This document shows positions 2,722 to 6,846 of a DNA stretch of 16,452 nt, one piece after another. Where the stretch lies: assembly GCA_029257755.1 (NCBI GenBank), contig JARIAP010000060.1:1-16452 (forward strand), read 5' to 3'. Position numbers and translations under genes: made by a program. The notes under the pieces are model-generated. The model saw nothing but the letters and a program-made list of their open reading frames with translations, had not been told where the DNA came from and did not search any database. Source of the DNA: Helicobacter sp. GTDB lineage: Bacteria > Campylobacterota > Campylobacteria > Campylobacterales > Helicobacteraceae. How positions within the stretch are numbered: the first letter of the stretch is position 1; every line of letters begins with the position of its first letter.

Positions 2722-4188
2722 TTATTTTTTAGAAATAACCTCTATTGGATTAATATGTTTTCCTGATTGGACAATTTCAAGATTTAATCTATCATTTATT
2801 CTTCCTATAACATAACCTTGTTTTATAACAAAACCTTTTTTAAGTGTTGGTGCAACTTTATCAAGCATAGAATATATAGAGTGCATTGAATTTGCATGTT
2901 CTATTACTACAACCTTTTTTAATCCAGCCATTTCTTGTGCATAAATTACTTTACCATCCATTATGCTATATACTTGAGAATCTTCCTTTTTAGATTTTAA
3001 CACAACACCATTGTTAAATATTTTTATTTTATATGCTGGATCTATATAATCCCCAAACGCTTGTTCTATTGTATATGAATCTAATGGAGAACCAGCTTTT
3101 TTACCTGTATATTTTGCTGTTTCTGGTCGCTGATATACACTATCTACCCTCTTTAATTCTTCAAAACTATCAATTGCTGATGTTGCATTACTTGAGCTTA
3201 TAGCCGCATCATATTTTTGTTTAATTGCTTTATGTTGTTGTCCTAAAAATTGTTCTGCTTTTTTTGTATCTGTTTTTGCTATTTTTTCTGCTTCTTCTTT
3301 TGCTTTTCTTTCTGCTTCTGCCTTTGCTAATTCCGCCTTTTTATGCTCTTGTTCAATCTTTTTCTTTCTCTCTTTCTCAAGCTTTGCTAATCTCTCTTTC
3401 TCAAGCTTTGCTAATCTCTCTTGTTCTTTGCGTTTTTTAATTTCTTCTTGTGTGTTTTTCTTTAAAATATTCAACTGCCCTAACAATTTATCTAATTCTT
3501 TCTTTTGCATATCAATAGCTTTTAATCTTTGATTATAAACTTGCATTTCATTTCGCATATTATCAACTAAGATTTTTTGTTTTGATATCATAGTTTGTAA
3601 ATCTTGATGCCTATTTTCTTGTGTTGTTATTATTTGTGTTACCTCTTTTATACTACTATTTGTATCGTTTATTTGTTTTAATATCATGTTTTGTTGTTTC
3701 TCTATATTTTTTATATTTGAAATAGTTTGTTTTTTTAGAATCTTAAATGCCTCTCTTGCTACAATATCATCCATACTTAATACTTCCTCATCGTCTAGGA
3801 CATAAGCTATTGTTGTATATTGCAATATTAATTTGCTAAGCTCTGTTTGTGATATTTCTAAAGATTCATTAAGTATTGCTAATTGATTTTCCAACATTTG
3901 CAATTTTGCTTCTTGTGTTTTATTTTGATCCTTATTGTCTTCAATATTCTTAGATAAACTTTGTATTTCTAAGTCAAGTTGTTTTATTTTCTTTACATTA
4001 TTACTTATATTTTGCCCTAATGTGCTTAACTTCAAATTTAAATTTGCTCTTTGTTTATCAATATCGCTTTTTTGTGCTTCATTTTTTTGTATATTTTTAT
4101 TTATTTCATTAATATCTGGATTATTTGAAGCGGTATAAAAAAACCAAAAAAACAAAAACAATATATAGATATAAAAAGATTGCCTCAT
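2722..4188 (-). CDS. EnvC-like murein hydrolase activator (coiled coil plus degenerate LytM/M23 domain)
   Basis: The protein has 488 residues from the preferred ATG at 4188. That start overlaps the ftsX stop as ATGA, has AAAGG seven bases upstream, and puts a signal or anchor segment (about 5-20) at the N-terminus. An in-frame ATG at 4227 would add 13 unlikely residues. Two long coiled coils follow (about 25-125 and 150-310), the second very rich in Lys, Glu and Ala. The C-terminus (about 370-485) is a LytM/M23 fold. The zinc and catalytic positions are gone: the H.G.D segment reads KIFNNGVVLK (389-398), YAHL reads YSML (439-442), and HLHFEI reads RLNLEI (467-472). This is the EnvC pattern: a non-enzymatic LytM domain that activates periplasmic N-acetylmuramoyl-L-alanine amidases at the septum. 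Placement right after ftsE and ftsX supports the role strongly. It ends 13 bases from the converging exported-protein gene. Confidence 0.85.
   Translation of the reverse strand: MRQSFYIYILFLFFWFFYTASNNPDINEINKNIQKNEAQKSDIDKQRANLNLKLSTLGQNISNNVKKIKQLDLEIQSLSKNIEDNKDQNKTQEAKLQMLENQLAILNESLEISQTELSKLILQYTTIAYVLDDEEVLSMDDIVAREAFKILKKQTISNIKNIEKQQNMILKQINDTNSSIKEVTQIITTQENRHQDLQTMISKQKILVDNMRNEMQVYNQRLKAIDMQKKELDKLLGQLNILKKNTQEEIKKRKEQERLAKLEKERLAKLEKERKKKIEQEHKKAELAKAEAERKAKEEAEKIAKTDTKKAEQFLGQQHKAIKQKYDAAISSSNATSAIDSFEELKRVDSVYQRPETAKYTGKKAGSPLDSYTIEQAFGDYIDPAYKIKIFNNGVVLKSKKEDSQVYSIMDGKVIYAQEMAGLKKVVVIEHANSMHSIYSMLDKVAPTLKKGFVIKQGYVIGRINDRLNLEIVQSGKHINPIEVISKK
3368..3415. repeat. 24-bp perfect tandem duplication inside the envC-like gene
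   Basis: Two identical 24-base units sit head to tail (3368-3391 and 3392-3415), and the first seven bases of a third copy follow. On the coding strand each unit encodes eight residues of the RLAKLEKE type, in the second coiled coil (about residues 258-274). The unit is a multiple of three, so gain or loss of a copy keeps the frame and only changes coiled-coil length. Confidence 0.85.
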
Positions 4189-4994
4189 GTTCTTGCCTTT
4201 GATAAAATGACAAAAATAACACAACAAAATGATGATATAAATGCGGCTAAAAACAATTTCAAAAAATCAAGCGGTATCTGGAATATATTTAAACCTATGC
4301 CAAGAGATTGTATTGTATCAAGCGTAATTTGTAAGCTTGCTATATAAAATACAATCAAAGATATTAAAAAACTTGCTATAAAAGAATCAATTAAAGCTAA
4401 TTTAAATAAACTTCTATTTCTTATCCAAATATTTGCACCTAAAATATCCATGATTTCCATTTTTTCTTTATTTGCATAACGCCAAATTTCTATTTGTTTT
4501 AGCATAAGCATAAAACTAATTAATGCTAAAATAATTGCAAAAGTAATAACACTAAGTTTAATAAAACTTAAAAGAGTATAATTTTCTAAATGTCTTTTTG
4601 AAAATGTATCAACAGATATTATATTTGTATTCTTTTTCAATACAGCTTCAATAGCATTTAATCTTTCTGTGCTAGGAAAATATTCAAGACTCAAACTATA
4701 AAAATATGGTAATTGTCTTGTAAGGTTTGTTAGATTTGCTTCACTAATATCTTTTGTAAGTTTTGCAATAGAATCTTTTGGATTAAGTTTAGTTAATTCC
4801 TTAGCTTCAACAATTTTAGATCTTACAGATTCAAATGTAATTGGCTTTCTTGCTGTAATCCCAATAGCATATTTTTGTGTTATAAATTGCTCTTGTTTTG
4901 CTACAATTCTTTCTAAAATAAGTAAGCATTGTAAGCTAAAAAGCATGGCAATAAGCGGTATTAGCAATGATAAGTGTTGTTTAAGCGTATTCAT
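4185..4994 (-). CDS. ftsX: Cell division protein FtsX, membrane subunit of FtsEX
   Basis: The protein has 269 residues with the FtsX topology: TM1 at about 8-27, a periplasmic domain of about 115 residues (28-143), TM2 at about 144-166, a cytoplasmic loop, TM3 at about 197-220 and TM4 at about 242-264. The loop after TM2 carries KEKMEIMDILGANIWIRNR (176-194), matching the charged FtsX segment followed by L-G-A that contacts FtsE. In other bacteria the periplasmic domain binds the EnvC coiled coil, and ATP cycling by FtsE is transmitted through FtsX to release EnvC autoinhibition at the division site. The start overlaps the end of ftsE by 14 bases, with GAAGG eight bases upstream of the ATG. 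The stop overlaps the envC-like start as ATGA, so the three genes are probably translationally coupled. Sequence conservation is low, as usual for this family, so the call rests on topology plus context. Confidence 0.88.
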   Translation of the reverse strand: MNTLKQHLSLLIPLIAMLFSLQCLLILERIVAKQEQFITQKYAIGITARKPITFESVRSKIVEAKELTKLNPKDSIAKLTKDISEANLTNLTRQLPYFYSLSLEYFPSTERLNAIEAVLKKNTNIISVDTFSKRHLENYTLLSFIKLSVITFAIILALISFMLMLKQIEIWRYANKEKMEIMDILGANIWIRNRSLFKLALIDSFIASFLISLIVFYIASLQITLDTIQSLGIGLNIFQIPLDFLKLFLAAFISSFCCVIFVILSKART

Positions 4995-5652
4995 TAATTA
5001 AACCTTCTTTTATTTCTATTTTTCTATATTTAAGGTTAAGGTGTTTTGGGATTCTATGTGTTACAACTACAATTGTAATATTTAATTGCTCATTTGATGA
5101 TTTCAATAATCCCCAAATCATATCACTTGAATAATCATCAAGATTTCCTGTTGGTTCATCACATAATATTAATCTTGGTCTATGTGCAATTGCTCTTGCT
5201 AATGCTACTCTTTGTTGTTCTCCACCGCTTAACTCTTGTGGGTATTTATTTGCTTTATGCAATAGATTAATATGTGATAATAATTTTTCTGCTTGTGTTT
5301 TTGTCTCTGTTTTTGGAAATTTATTTATAATCATTGGCAATGCTATATTTTTTTCAACATTCCAATCTTTTATAAGTTTATAATCCTGAAAAACAATTCC
5401 CATTTTTCTACGCAATAATGTTAATTTATGAGAACTAATTTTTTTCATATTATAATGTAAAACATCAAGCTCACCAGCTTGAATGCTCAAATTACCATAA
5501 ATAGAGCGTAAAAGTGTGATTTTACCACTAACACTTGCACAATATATAAACACAAAATATTTTGGGTATATTGTAAAATTTGCATTTTTAATTATAATTC
5601 CAGTTCGTTTATATCCTAAACATAGTTGCTTTGCTCTAATAATTGAATTCAT
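4981..5652 (-). CDS. ftsE: Cell division ATP-binding protein FtsE with an altered Walker A loop
   Basis: This is an ABC ATPase of 223 residues, normal FtsE length. Visible motifs are the A-loop Tyr (Y14), the Q-loop VFQD (87-90, Q89), signature LSGGEQQ (141-147), Walker B LILCDEP (161-167, D165 and E166), D-loop NLDD (170-173) and H-loop THR (198-200, H199). The anomaly is Walker A (38-46), which reads CASVSGKIT instead of GASGSGKST. K44 is kept, but G38 is Cys, G41 is Val, and the Mg-binding Ser is I45. Each change needs one G-to-T on the coding strand (window bases 5541, 5531 and 5519). With these residues, normal ATP binding and hydrolysis would not be expected. The frame is otherwise intact, so either the protein is an ATPase-defective partner of FtsX or the bases are wrong. 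AAGGAG lies eight bases before the ATG, which directly abuts the trmB stop. Confidence 0.9.
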
Positions 5653-6846
5653 TTATAATTCTCCTTTTTTTACTGCATTATCACCATGTTTTAGAATATT
5701 ACATAAAAATTTATGTGCTATAGTATGTGATTTTATATTTAATGGTTGTTTTAAATAATGTAGTTTATTATCTTCTAAAATTAAAAATGTATTAAATGGC
5801 ATATAAAAACTCCCAAATGAAATTTGAACGACACTAATATTTCTTTTAGAATTTGGTTTTGAATAATACAAATCACCAATATTAATAAATATAGAATCAT
5901 GTATCCATTTTTTATTACAAATATCTAAAAAATTTATTTGTTTTATATCAAATTCAAAATCTATTTGAGATAATGATTGTTGTTTGTCATATAATGGTTG
6001 TTTAAAAATATGTAATTCATAAATATCTTTTTTTAAATTTGTCCATCTTTGCTCATATTTACTAATAATCTTTGTGTCTTTATTCTTAAGCACCTCAAAA
6101 TGTGCATGGTCTGCACTTAATGCTTCATTTATACTATCTCGCACATATTCAAAATCATCGCTTCTTATATTAATATAACCATTATTTTTTAAAATTCTAA
6201 AACTATTTTCTAAGAAATCTCTACTAAATACTCTTCTGTGTTTTGCTTTATTCCAAGGAACCGGAAAATGTAAAAATATTGTATCTACACTATTTATATC
6301 AAGTGTTTGAATAATCTGTCTTGCATCAAAATTACATATATATAAATTTTTAATTTCATATAATTCAATTGCATTTAATACTTGCCTTATTGATGGAAAG
6401 TGAATCTCAAAGCCCAATATTATTTTATTTGTATTTGAATTTGCTAAATCTATTATATGCCTACCACTCCCAAAACCTATTTCTATTAAATCTGGTTTTA
6501 TATTTTTTAATTCATTTTCATTTAATAAAAATCCTGTTTGCATACCTTTTGTATGTTTTTTATTTACTTTATTTAAGTTATGTGAAATTATATCTAATCC
6601 GCTTGAAATAAAATTTAAAACTTTTTTTATTATATTTAAATCATTTGGACGAGTTAATTTATCAATCTTGTATAAAAAATCATTATCTCTTTTTATACAA
6701 CGAATAAAAAATATGGAATTATTATACAATATTGGTAATATTTGAAGGTTTGGATATTTATTATTAACTAAATATTCTGCAATATAAAAATTGTCATGCT
6801 TTATATTTGTTTGCATAAACATATTTTTGCTAATAAAATGTGGCAT
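5653..6846 (-). CDS. trmB: tRNA (guanine-N7-)-methyltransferase, long epsilonproteobacterial form
   Basis: TrmB transfers a methyl group from S-adenosylmethionine to N7 of G46 in the tRNA variable loop. The methyltransferase core occupies about residues 100-285: SAM-binding EIGFGSGRH (122-130), acidic residue in GFEIHF (145-150), the family signature HFPVPWNKAKHRR (193-205), RSDDFEY (228-234) and SKYEQRW (262-268), equivalent to the T.YE.R motif. At 397 residues it is much longer than the roughly 240 of E. coli TrmB. The additions are about 100 residues before and 110 after the core. I recall a similar long form in H. pylori, but the extra parts have no motif I can name. The ribosome site AAGGA has an eight-base spacer and overlaps the stop of the upstream Fn3 gene. 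The stop TAA directly abuts the ftsE ATG, so co-translation with ftsE is likely. Confidence 0.92.
   Translation of the reverse strand: MPHFISKNMFMQTNIKHDNFYIAEYLVNNKYPNLQILPILYNNSIFFIRCIKRDNDFLYKIDKLTRPNDLNIIKKVLNFISSGLDIISHNLNKVNKKHTKGMQTGFLLNENELKNIKPDLIEIGFGSGRHIIDLANSNTNKIILGFEIHFPSIRQVLNAIELYEIKNLYICNFDARQIIQTLDINSVDTIFLHFPVPWNKAKHRRVFSRDFLENSFRILKNNGYINIRSDDFEYVRDSINEALSADHAHFEVLKNKDTKIISKYEQRWTNLKKDIYELHIFKQPLYDKQQSLSQIDFEFDIKQINFLDICNKKWIHDSIFINIGDLYYSKPNSKRNISVVQISFGSFYMPFNTFLILEDNKLHYLKQPLNIKSHTIAHKFLCNILKHGDNAVKKGEL

Follow-up and report, generated by a model that had tools for sequence, protein, structure and literature searches.

Five clustered G:C>T:A changes in and beside the Walker A motif of FtsE in a draft Helicobacter genome: a probable local assembly error

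Does a Helicobacter species carry a cell-division ATPase whose nucleotide-binding loop has been destroyed? The question is raised by the window analyzed here, a stretch of 16,452 bases that constitutes the whole of contig C52 of a Helicobacter sp. draft genome (1.31 Mb, 199 contigs, 67% complete) and is placed by its relatives near Helicobacter bilis, trogontum and aurati. On its minus strand the window encodes FtsE (4981–5652, 223 amino acids), the ATP-binding subunit of the FtsEX cell-division complex, identified by its open frame, NCBIfam, PDB and orthology. The Walker A motif, or P-loop, of this protein (residues 38–46; 5515–5541, minus strand) reads CASVSGKIT and departs from the pattern GxxGxGK[ST]. 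A sequence-only reading had ascribed this to three G-to-T changes and had considered an ATPase-dead lineage, fresh loss-of-function mutations or wrong bases as explanations.

Codon alignment with 13 genus mates, supported by a placement test, revealed a cluster of five G:C>T:A departures at 5519–5559 on the minus strand, i.e., D32Y at 5559, S37Y at 5543, G38C at 5541, G41V at 5531 and S45I at 5519, spanning 41 bases. The motif CASVSGKIT and the changes at 5541, 5531 and 5519 were confirmed by the sequence and its translation, but the earlier count of exactly three was too low, D32Y and S37Y adjoining the motif. Likewise, the claim of G-to-T throughout, read on the coding strand, is true of four changes (5559, 5541, 5531 and 5519) and fails for 5543, which is C>A. 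Every one of the five changes alters an amino acid, and four fall in columns that are invariant across the 13 genus mates. Between 5500 and 5580, the five are the sole departures from bases that are invariant in the relatives. As a side observation, D32Y turns the 12 bases at 5553–5564 (coding strand, CAAAATATTTTG) into a perfect palindrome, which could be chance; comparison with the own genome returned a self-match at 5546–5571 around it.

Within the P-loop, the lysine and the glycine preceding it are retained, but substitutions have removed the first two glycines of the motif and the serine that follows the lysine. With these glycines and the serine lost, binding of ATP and magnesium by the FtsE of the window would be expected to fail. 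Structure-prediction models respond unreliably to point changes. The altered loop matches residues 37–45 of Streptococcus pneumoniae FtsE, named as the P-loop in the available text of PMC7468199, according to which the phosphates are held by the main-chain nitrogens of G40–K43 and by the K43 side chain. The glycines and the serine are present in S. pneumoniae FtsE (6z4w, 6z63), in contrast to the window protein. The A-loop tyrosine, the Q-loop FQDYKL, the signature LSGGEQQ, the Walker B motif LILCDEP, the D-loop GNLDD and the H-loop VTHR are all as in the 13 genus mates. The frame is open without stops, the ftsE start abuts the trmB-like open reading frame (ORF) and the ftsE end overlaps ftsX, so that the earlier description of normal remaining motifs, an intact frame and intact operon junctions proved correct.

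The same codons were compared in related FtsE sequences, as the sequence-only reading had proposed. The P-loop glycines (38 and 41) and the serine (45) are kept in all 13 genus mates. No second assembly of the same species is among these, the nearest FtsE being 91% identical. The site was further read from the 29 genomes with loci among 120 other family genomes matched and from 33 of 34 Helicobacteraceae loci, which overlap those 29. Of 63 related loci, 62 cover all five sites and yield 35 distinct aligned sequences; distinct sequences rather than loci were counted, because the loci stem from two overlapping collections. All 35 carry G, G and S at positions 38, 41 and 45, while position 32 is D in 34 and E in one, and position 37 is S in 31 and T in four. 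CASVSGKIT is thus not common to sister species, and the suggestion that this lineage uses an ATPase-dead FtsE finds no support. The FtsE proteins of the H. bilis/trogontum/aurati group (e.g., L039–L049 and L068) share with the window protein 81–91% identity, the gene order and identical signature, Walker B and D-loop motifs; the P-loop is intact in all of them, and the window protein differs by the five clustered changes. In two further places a relative's ftsE looked irregular: in the family genome G004 (C140:18410–19070) the match comes as two overlapping fragments containing TGA stops, and in a Helicobacter bizzozeronii CCUG 35545 contig (L072) ftsE matches well only from residue 114 on. 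The two are perhaps one draft, with a frameshift or an error in ftsE.

Outside the cluster, the gene appears fully constrained. FtsE holds 164 columns that are invariant in the genus; the four altered ones all lie inside the cluster, and none of the 152 columns outside is changed. In the adjoining genes, invariant columns are altered in 0 of 134 cases for ftsX, 0 of 161 for envC and 1 of 103 for the trmB-like gene. The FtsE changes outside the cluster assigned to the window branch are V20I, V57I and I117T, with one on the sister branch; ftsX has a single amino-acid change on this branch. At fourfold sites, the window and its nearest relative have diverged by 0.36–0.73 per gene. With a neutral branch length of 0.15–0.3, an FtsE free to vary along the whole branch would be predicted to have collected 50–100 amino-acid changes at the 152 invariant codons, and none is observed. 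Under a simple rate model, in which a dead FtsE is taken to be free of constraint, any unconstrained time is bounded at about the last 3–6% of the branch. As no invariant codon outside the cluster is changed, the five changes arose together and very late, or they are non-biological. A pseudogene, with relaxed constraint, stops or frameshifts throughout the gene, is not supported: there are no stops, and the counts of 0 of 152 for ftsE outside the cluster and 0 of 134 for ftsX show no relaxation.

The clustering itself exceeds what random placement delivers. In the window genes with at least three relatives, 19 G:C>T:A departures are found on 1,495 invariant G/C sites, five of them inside 45 bases; this count is looser for genes with only three relatives, and it excludes atpI (two relatives) as well as the aminotransferase gene, a 211-amino-acid ORF and ppk2, which are without relatives. 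When the 19 departures were placed at random on the 1,495 sites 20,000 times, five within 45 bases never occurred and the maximum of four was reached in 38 placements. Each of the 13 relatives, treated alike, showed at most three G:C>T:A departures within 45 bases. The class accounts for 19 of 178 departures in the whole window and for 14 of 173 once the cluster is set aside.

As a genome-wide control, 42 ORFs (16,068 codons) from eight stretches of the own genome were analyzed, in which 73 of the 847 departures from invariant bases are G:C>T:A, with no more than three within 45 bases. Control ORFs were compared with six genus mates, the window genes with up to 13. At least four distinct relative sequences were required, for which reason 10 of 52 selected ORFs were dropped; a genome may contribute several of the sequences counted, and a close paralogue may be among them. 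The eight stretches (L088, L097, L098, L100, L104, L105, L295 and L296) were chosen for length from 22; the others are L096, L099, L101–L103, L106 and L107, together with L089–L095, which served a check of Walker A motifs alone. In this check the motifs were intact in 19 of 19 readable cases from 16 other ABC proteins of the genome; three weak ABC matches (C80, C116 and C100) were excluded, and the first-domain Walker A motif in L093 is cut by the contig end. A mutator lineage or genome-wide oxidative damage is not supported, as neither the 42 sampled ORFs nor the rest of the window shows an excess of G:C>T:A.

Counted as altered invariant amino-acid columns within 14 codons, the ftsE cluster reaches 4 of 12, an ORF in L104 reaches 5 of 8 and one in L097 reaches 4 of 10. 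By number alone the ftsE cluster is therefore not unique; it is set apart by its single mutation class and its position in a conserved motif. Changes of several types make up the L097 group, as they do the end of an L296 ORF. The L104 group lies in the variable tail of a putative membrane protein that resembles a fumarate reductase cytochrome subunit. This tail also holds the largest other G:C>T:A group, three changes within five bases at L104:3251–3255 that replace DA by YY. Many mixed changes surround them, and the group probably represents ordinary divergence.

Taking these results together with the sequence context, we consider it probable that the five changes are a local error in the draft assembly and not a property of the living species. 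The consensus over approximately 41 bases would have been taken from very few, perhaps duplicate, reads, which would have carried G-to-T and C-to-A miscalls or damage. The FtsE of the organism would then be an ordinary ATP-binding FtsE, partnered by FtsX and the adjoining EnvC-like M23 protein. We infer the miscalls or damage, and likewise the thin local coverage, which is plausible because the genome is a 67%-complete draft in 199 contigs. All five changes belong to G:C>T:A, a minority class in the controls. For MiSeq data, the available text of PMC4381044 gives C>A as 58–61% of C miscalls and G>T as 40–45% of G miscalls, with A/C and G/T sharing a laser. Among the 8-oxo-guanine and base-calling artefacts of short reads, G>T and C>A figure prominently in the portions of PMC4381044 and PMC12390751 available to us, resembling the cluster in the window. 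These artefacts are, however, described there for reads and variant calls and not for an assembled bacterial consensus, and their one-strand asymmetry is only partly seen here, in four of the five changes.

Several observations weigh against an assembly error. No other such cluster occurs in the rest of the window or in the 42 control ORFs, so that the assembly is not error-ridden generally, and the cluster sits away from the ends of its contig of 16,452 bases. K-mers seen once are usually thrown out by assemblers. Only G/C sites are altered, though 25 of the 42 bases of the same codons in the relative L077 are A/T. According to the available text of PMC4381044, miscalls of A, mostly to C, are prominent on MiSeq too; in codons this rich in A/T, generic miscalling would therefore predict other changes as well. 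Ex-vivo 8-oxo-guanine damage is described as G>T without matching C>A, with low asymmetry in some samples (PMC12390751, available text), and the one C>A among the five changes is at odds with this asymmetry, a point of little weight. Oxidative damage of a single library strand, yielding G>T only, may accordingly fit the mixed strands somewhat less well.

A real and very recent loss of function is a possible but doubtful alternative to the assembly error. A single mutational event would have put five G:C>T:A changes into the ftsE of a strain or population, for example by error-prone synthesis over several damaged guanines in a single-stranded stretch; FtsE would then bind ATP poorly, and FtsX could not properly signal to the EnvC-like factor. 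Unrepaired 8-oxo-guanine is a known biological source of G:C>T:A in either strand sense, and both senses are seen here in a ratio of 4:1. That all five changes are nonsynonymous and that four strike columns invariant in the 13 genus mates argue in the same direction. One late event would also explain why ftsX and the remainder of ftsE are fully constrained. The lack of a similar cluster in the 42 sampled ORFs, the interior contig position and the restriction to G/C sites, which count against an assembly error, likewise favor such an event. Conversely, the share of G:C>T:A is not raised in the sampled genome, which thus gives no sign of a mutator, and the event, which strikes a conserved division gene, would need to have spread far enough through a wild population to set its consensus. 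Lesions of the ATP site of E. coli FtsE reportedly impair division. Of the explanations put forward by the sequence-only reading, fresh loss of function and wrong bases both remain candidates; one mutation class, tight packing, strong constraint in ftsX and the remaining ftsE, and the lack of a like cluster in the sampled genome favor one event, either very recent or technical.

It is highly improbable that the window encodes a functional, non-canonical FtsE, i.e., a nucleotide-independent structural partner of FtsX whose catalytic loop has been released from constraint. The intact operon and remaining motifs would be consistent with such a protein, but its P-loop is shared by none of the 13 genus mates and none of the 35 distinct related sequences. 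Moreover, the Walker B glutamate, the signature and the H-loop are unrelaxed, as are all 152 invariant codons beyond the cluster. The mutation class extends to D32Y and S37Y, which are not part of the P-loop; this suggests mutation type rather than function as what links the changes. Judged from the sequence, there is likewise only a very slim chance that a strain or species lives with a P-loop destroyed by one burst of five G:C>T:A changes, its ATPase-dead FtsE serving as a scaffold for FtsX and the EnvC-like partner and the hydrolase switch being driven otherwise. An ATPase-dead FtsE as a fixed state appears unlikely, and none is described for this group in the titles and abstract openings found on Helicobacter FtsE, FtsX or EnvC, on Campylobacter FtsE or FtsX, or on the FtsE Walker A motif.

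A mosaic or copied stretch, produced by recombination with a divergent donor, by a chimeric contig joined at the P-loop or by template switching, is barely tenable: P-loops are places where k-mer assemblers could misjoin, D32Y completes the palindrome at 5553–5564, and codons 32–45 are nearest to L077 (86%) and codons 46–223 to L075, a weak point, but binned identity along the window, printed for nine of the 13 relatives, is without a sustained switch, codons for the same amino acid agree with the nearest relative (L075) at 66–74% of third positions in each of 11 genes, the sole exact donor for k-mers of 12–16 bases with at least two of the changes is one 12-mer (searched in the window, L001–L008 and further fetched stretches), and the best non-self match of the 100-base stretch in the own genome covers 25 bases at 88% (E value 0.0175).

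The identity of the protein as FtsE is well supported. Each of the 13 genus mates holds one orthologue, with 81–91% protein identity and a single match of 407–446 bits. Among 180 NCBIfam models, TIGR02673 (FtsE) scores highest for the window protein at 198.2 bits, below the curated NCBI cut-off of 264.85 bits. This does not mark a strange protein, as all eight canonical genus mates tested fall short too (210.5–217.5 bits); the cut-off misses the genus and does not single out the window protein, and naming by it would miss FtsE in these genomes. The best PDB matches are S. pneumoniae FtsE structures 6z63 and 6z4w, over residues 3–219. A second, intact ftsE was not found in the own genome, of which the assembly is 67% complete; the next listed match is 39% identical. 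Plasmid sequences yielded nothing but ABC proteins of less than 60% identity.

FtsE lies in a run of minus-strand genes encoding a fibronectin-type protein, the TrmB-like methyltransferase, FtsE, FtsX and the EnvC-like M23 protein, and the order trmB-ftsE-ftsX-envC is kept in all 13 genus mates. Directly upstream of ftsE, the trmB-like methyltransferase gene is intact (5653–6846, minus strand; Pfam PF02390). The same holds for ftsX, encoding the permease-like partner (4185–4994, minus strand; Pfam FtsX), and for the gene of the EnvC-like coiled-coil protein with an M23 peptidase domain (2722–4227, minus strand; Pfam PF01551). Near the contig ends (723–2708 and 15089–16009), the aminotransferase gene, the 211-amino-acid ORF, which is without a Pfam match, and ppk2 have no match in the stretches from the 13 genus mates; these stretches may end too soon, or the gene order may differ.

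Most probably, the altered P-loop does not belong to the species itself. If it is an error, it illustrates how brief damage to a draft sequence can mimic the striking loss of a catalytic motif, the telltale signs being one mutation class, a tight cluster and full constraint elsewhere. Should the bases prove real, this FtsE would put to the test whether the structural job of FtsEX in a wild bacterium needs the ATPase of FtsE, which laboratory mutants address only partly.
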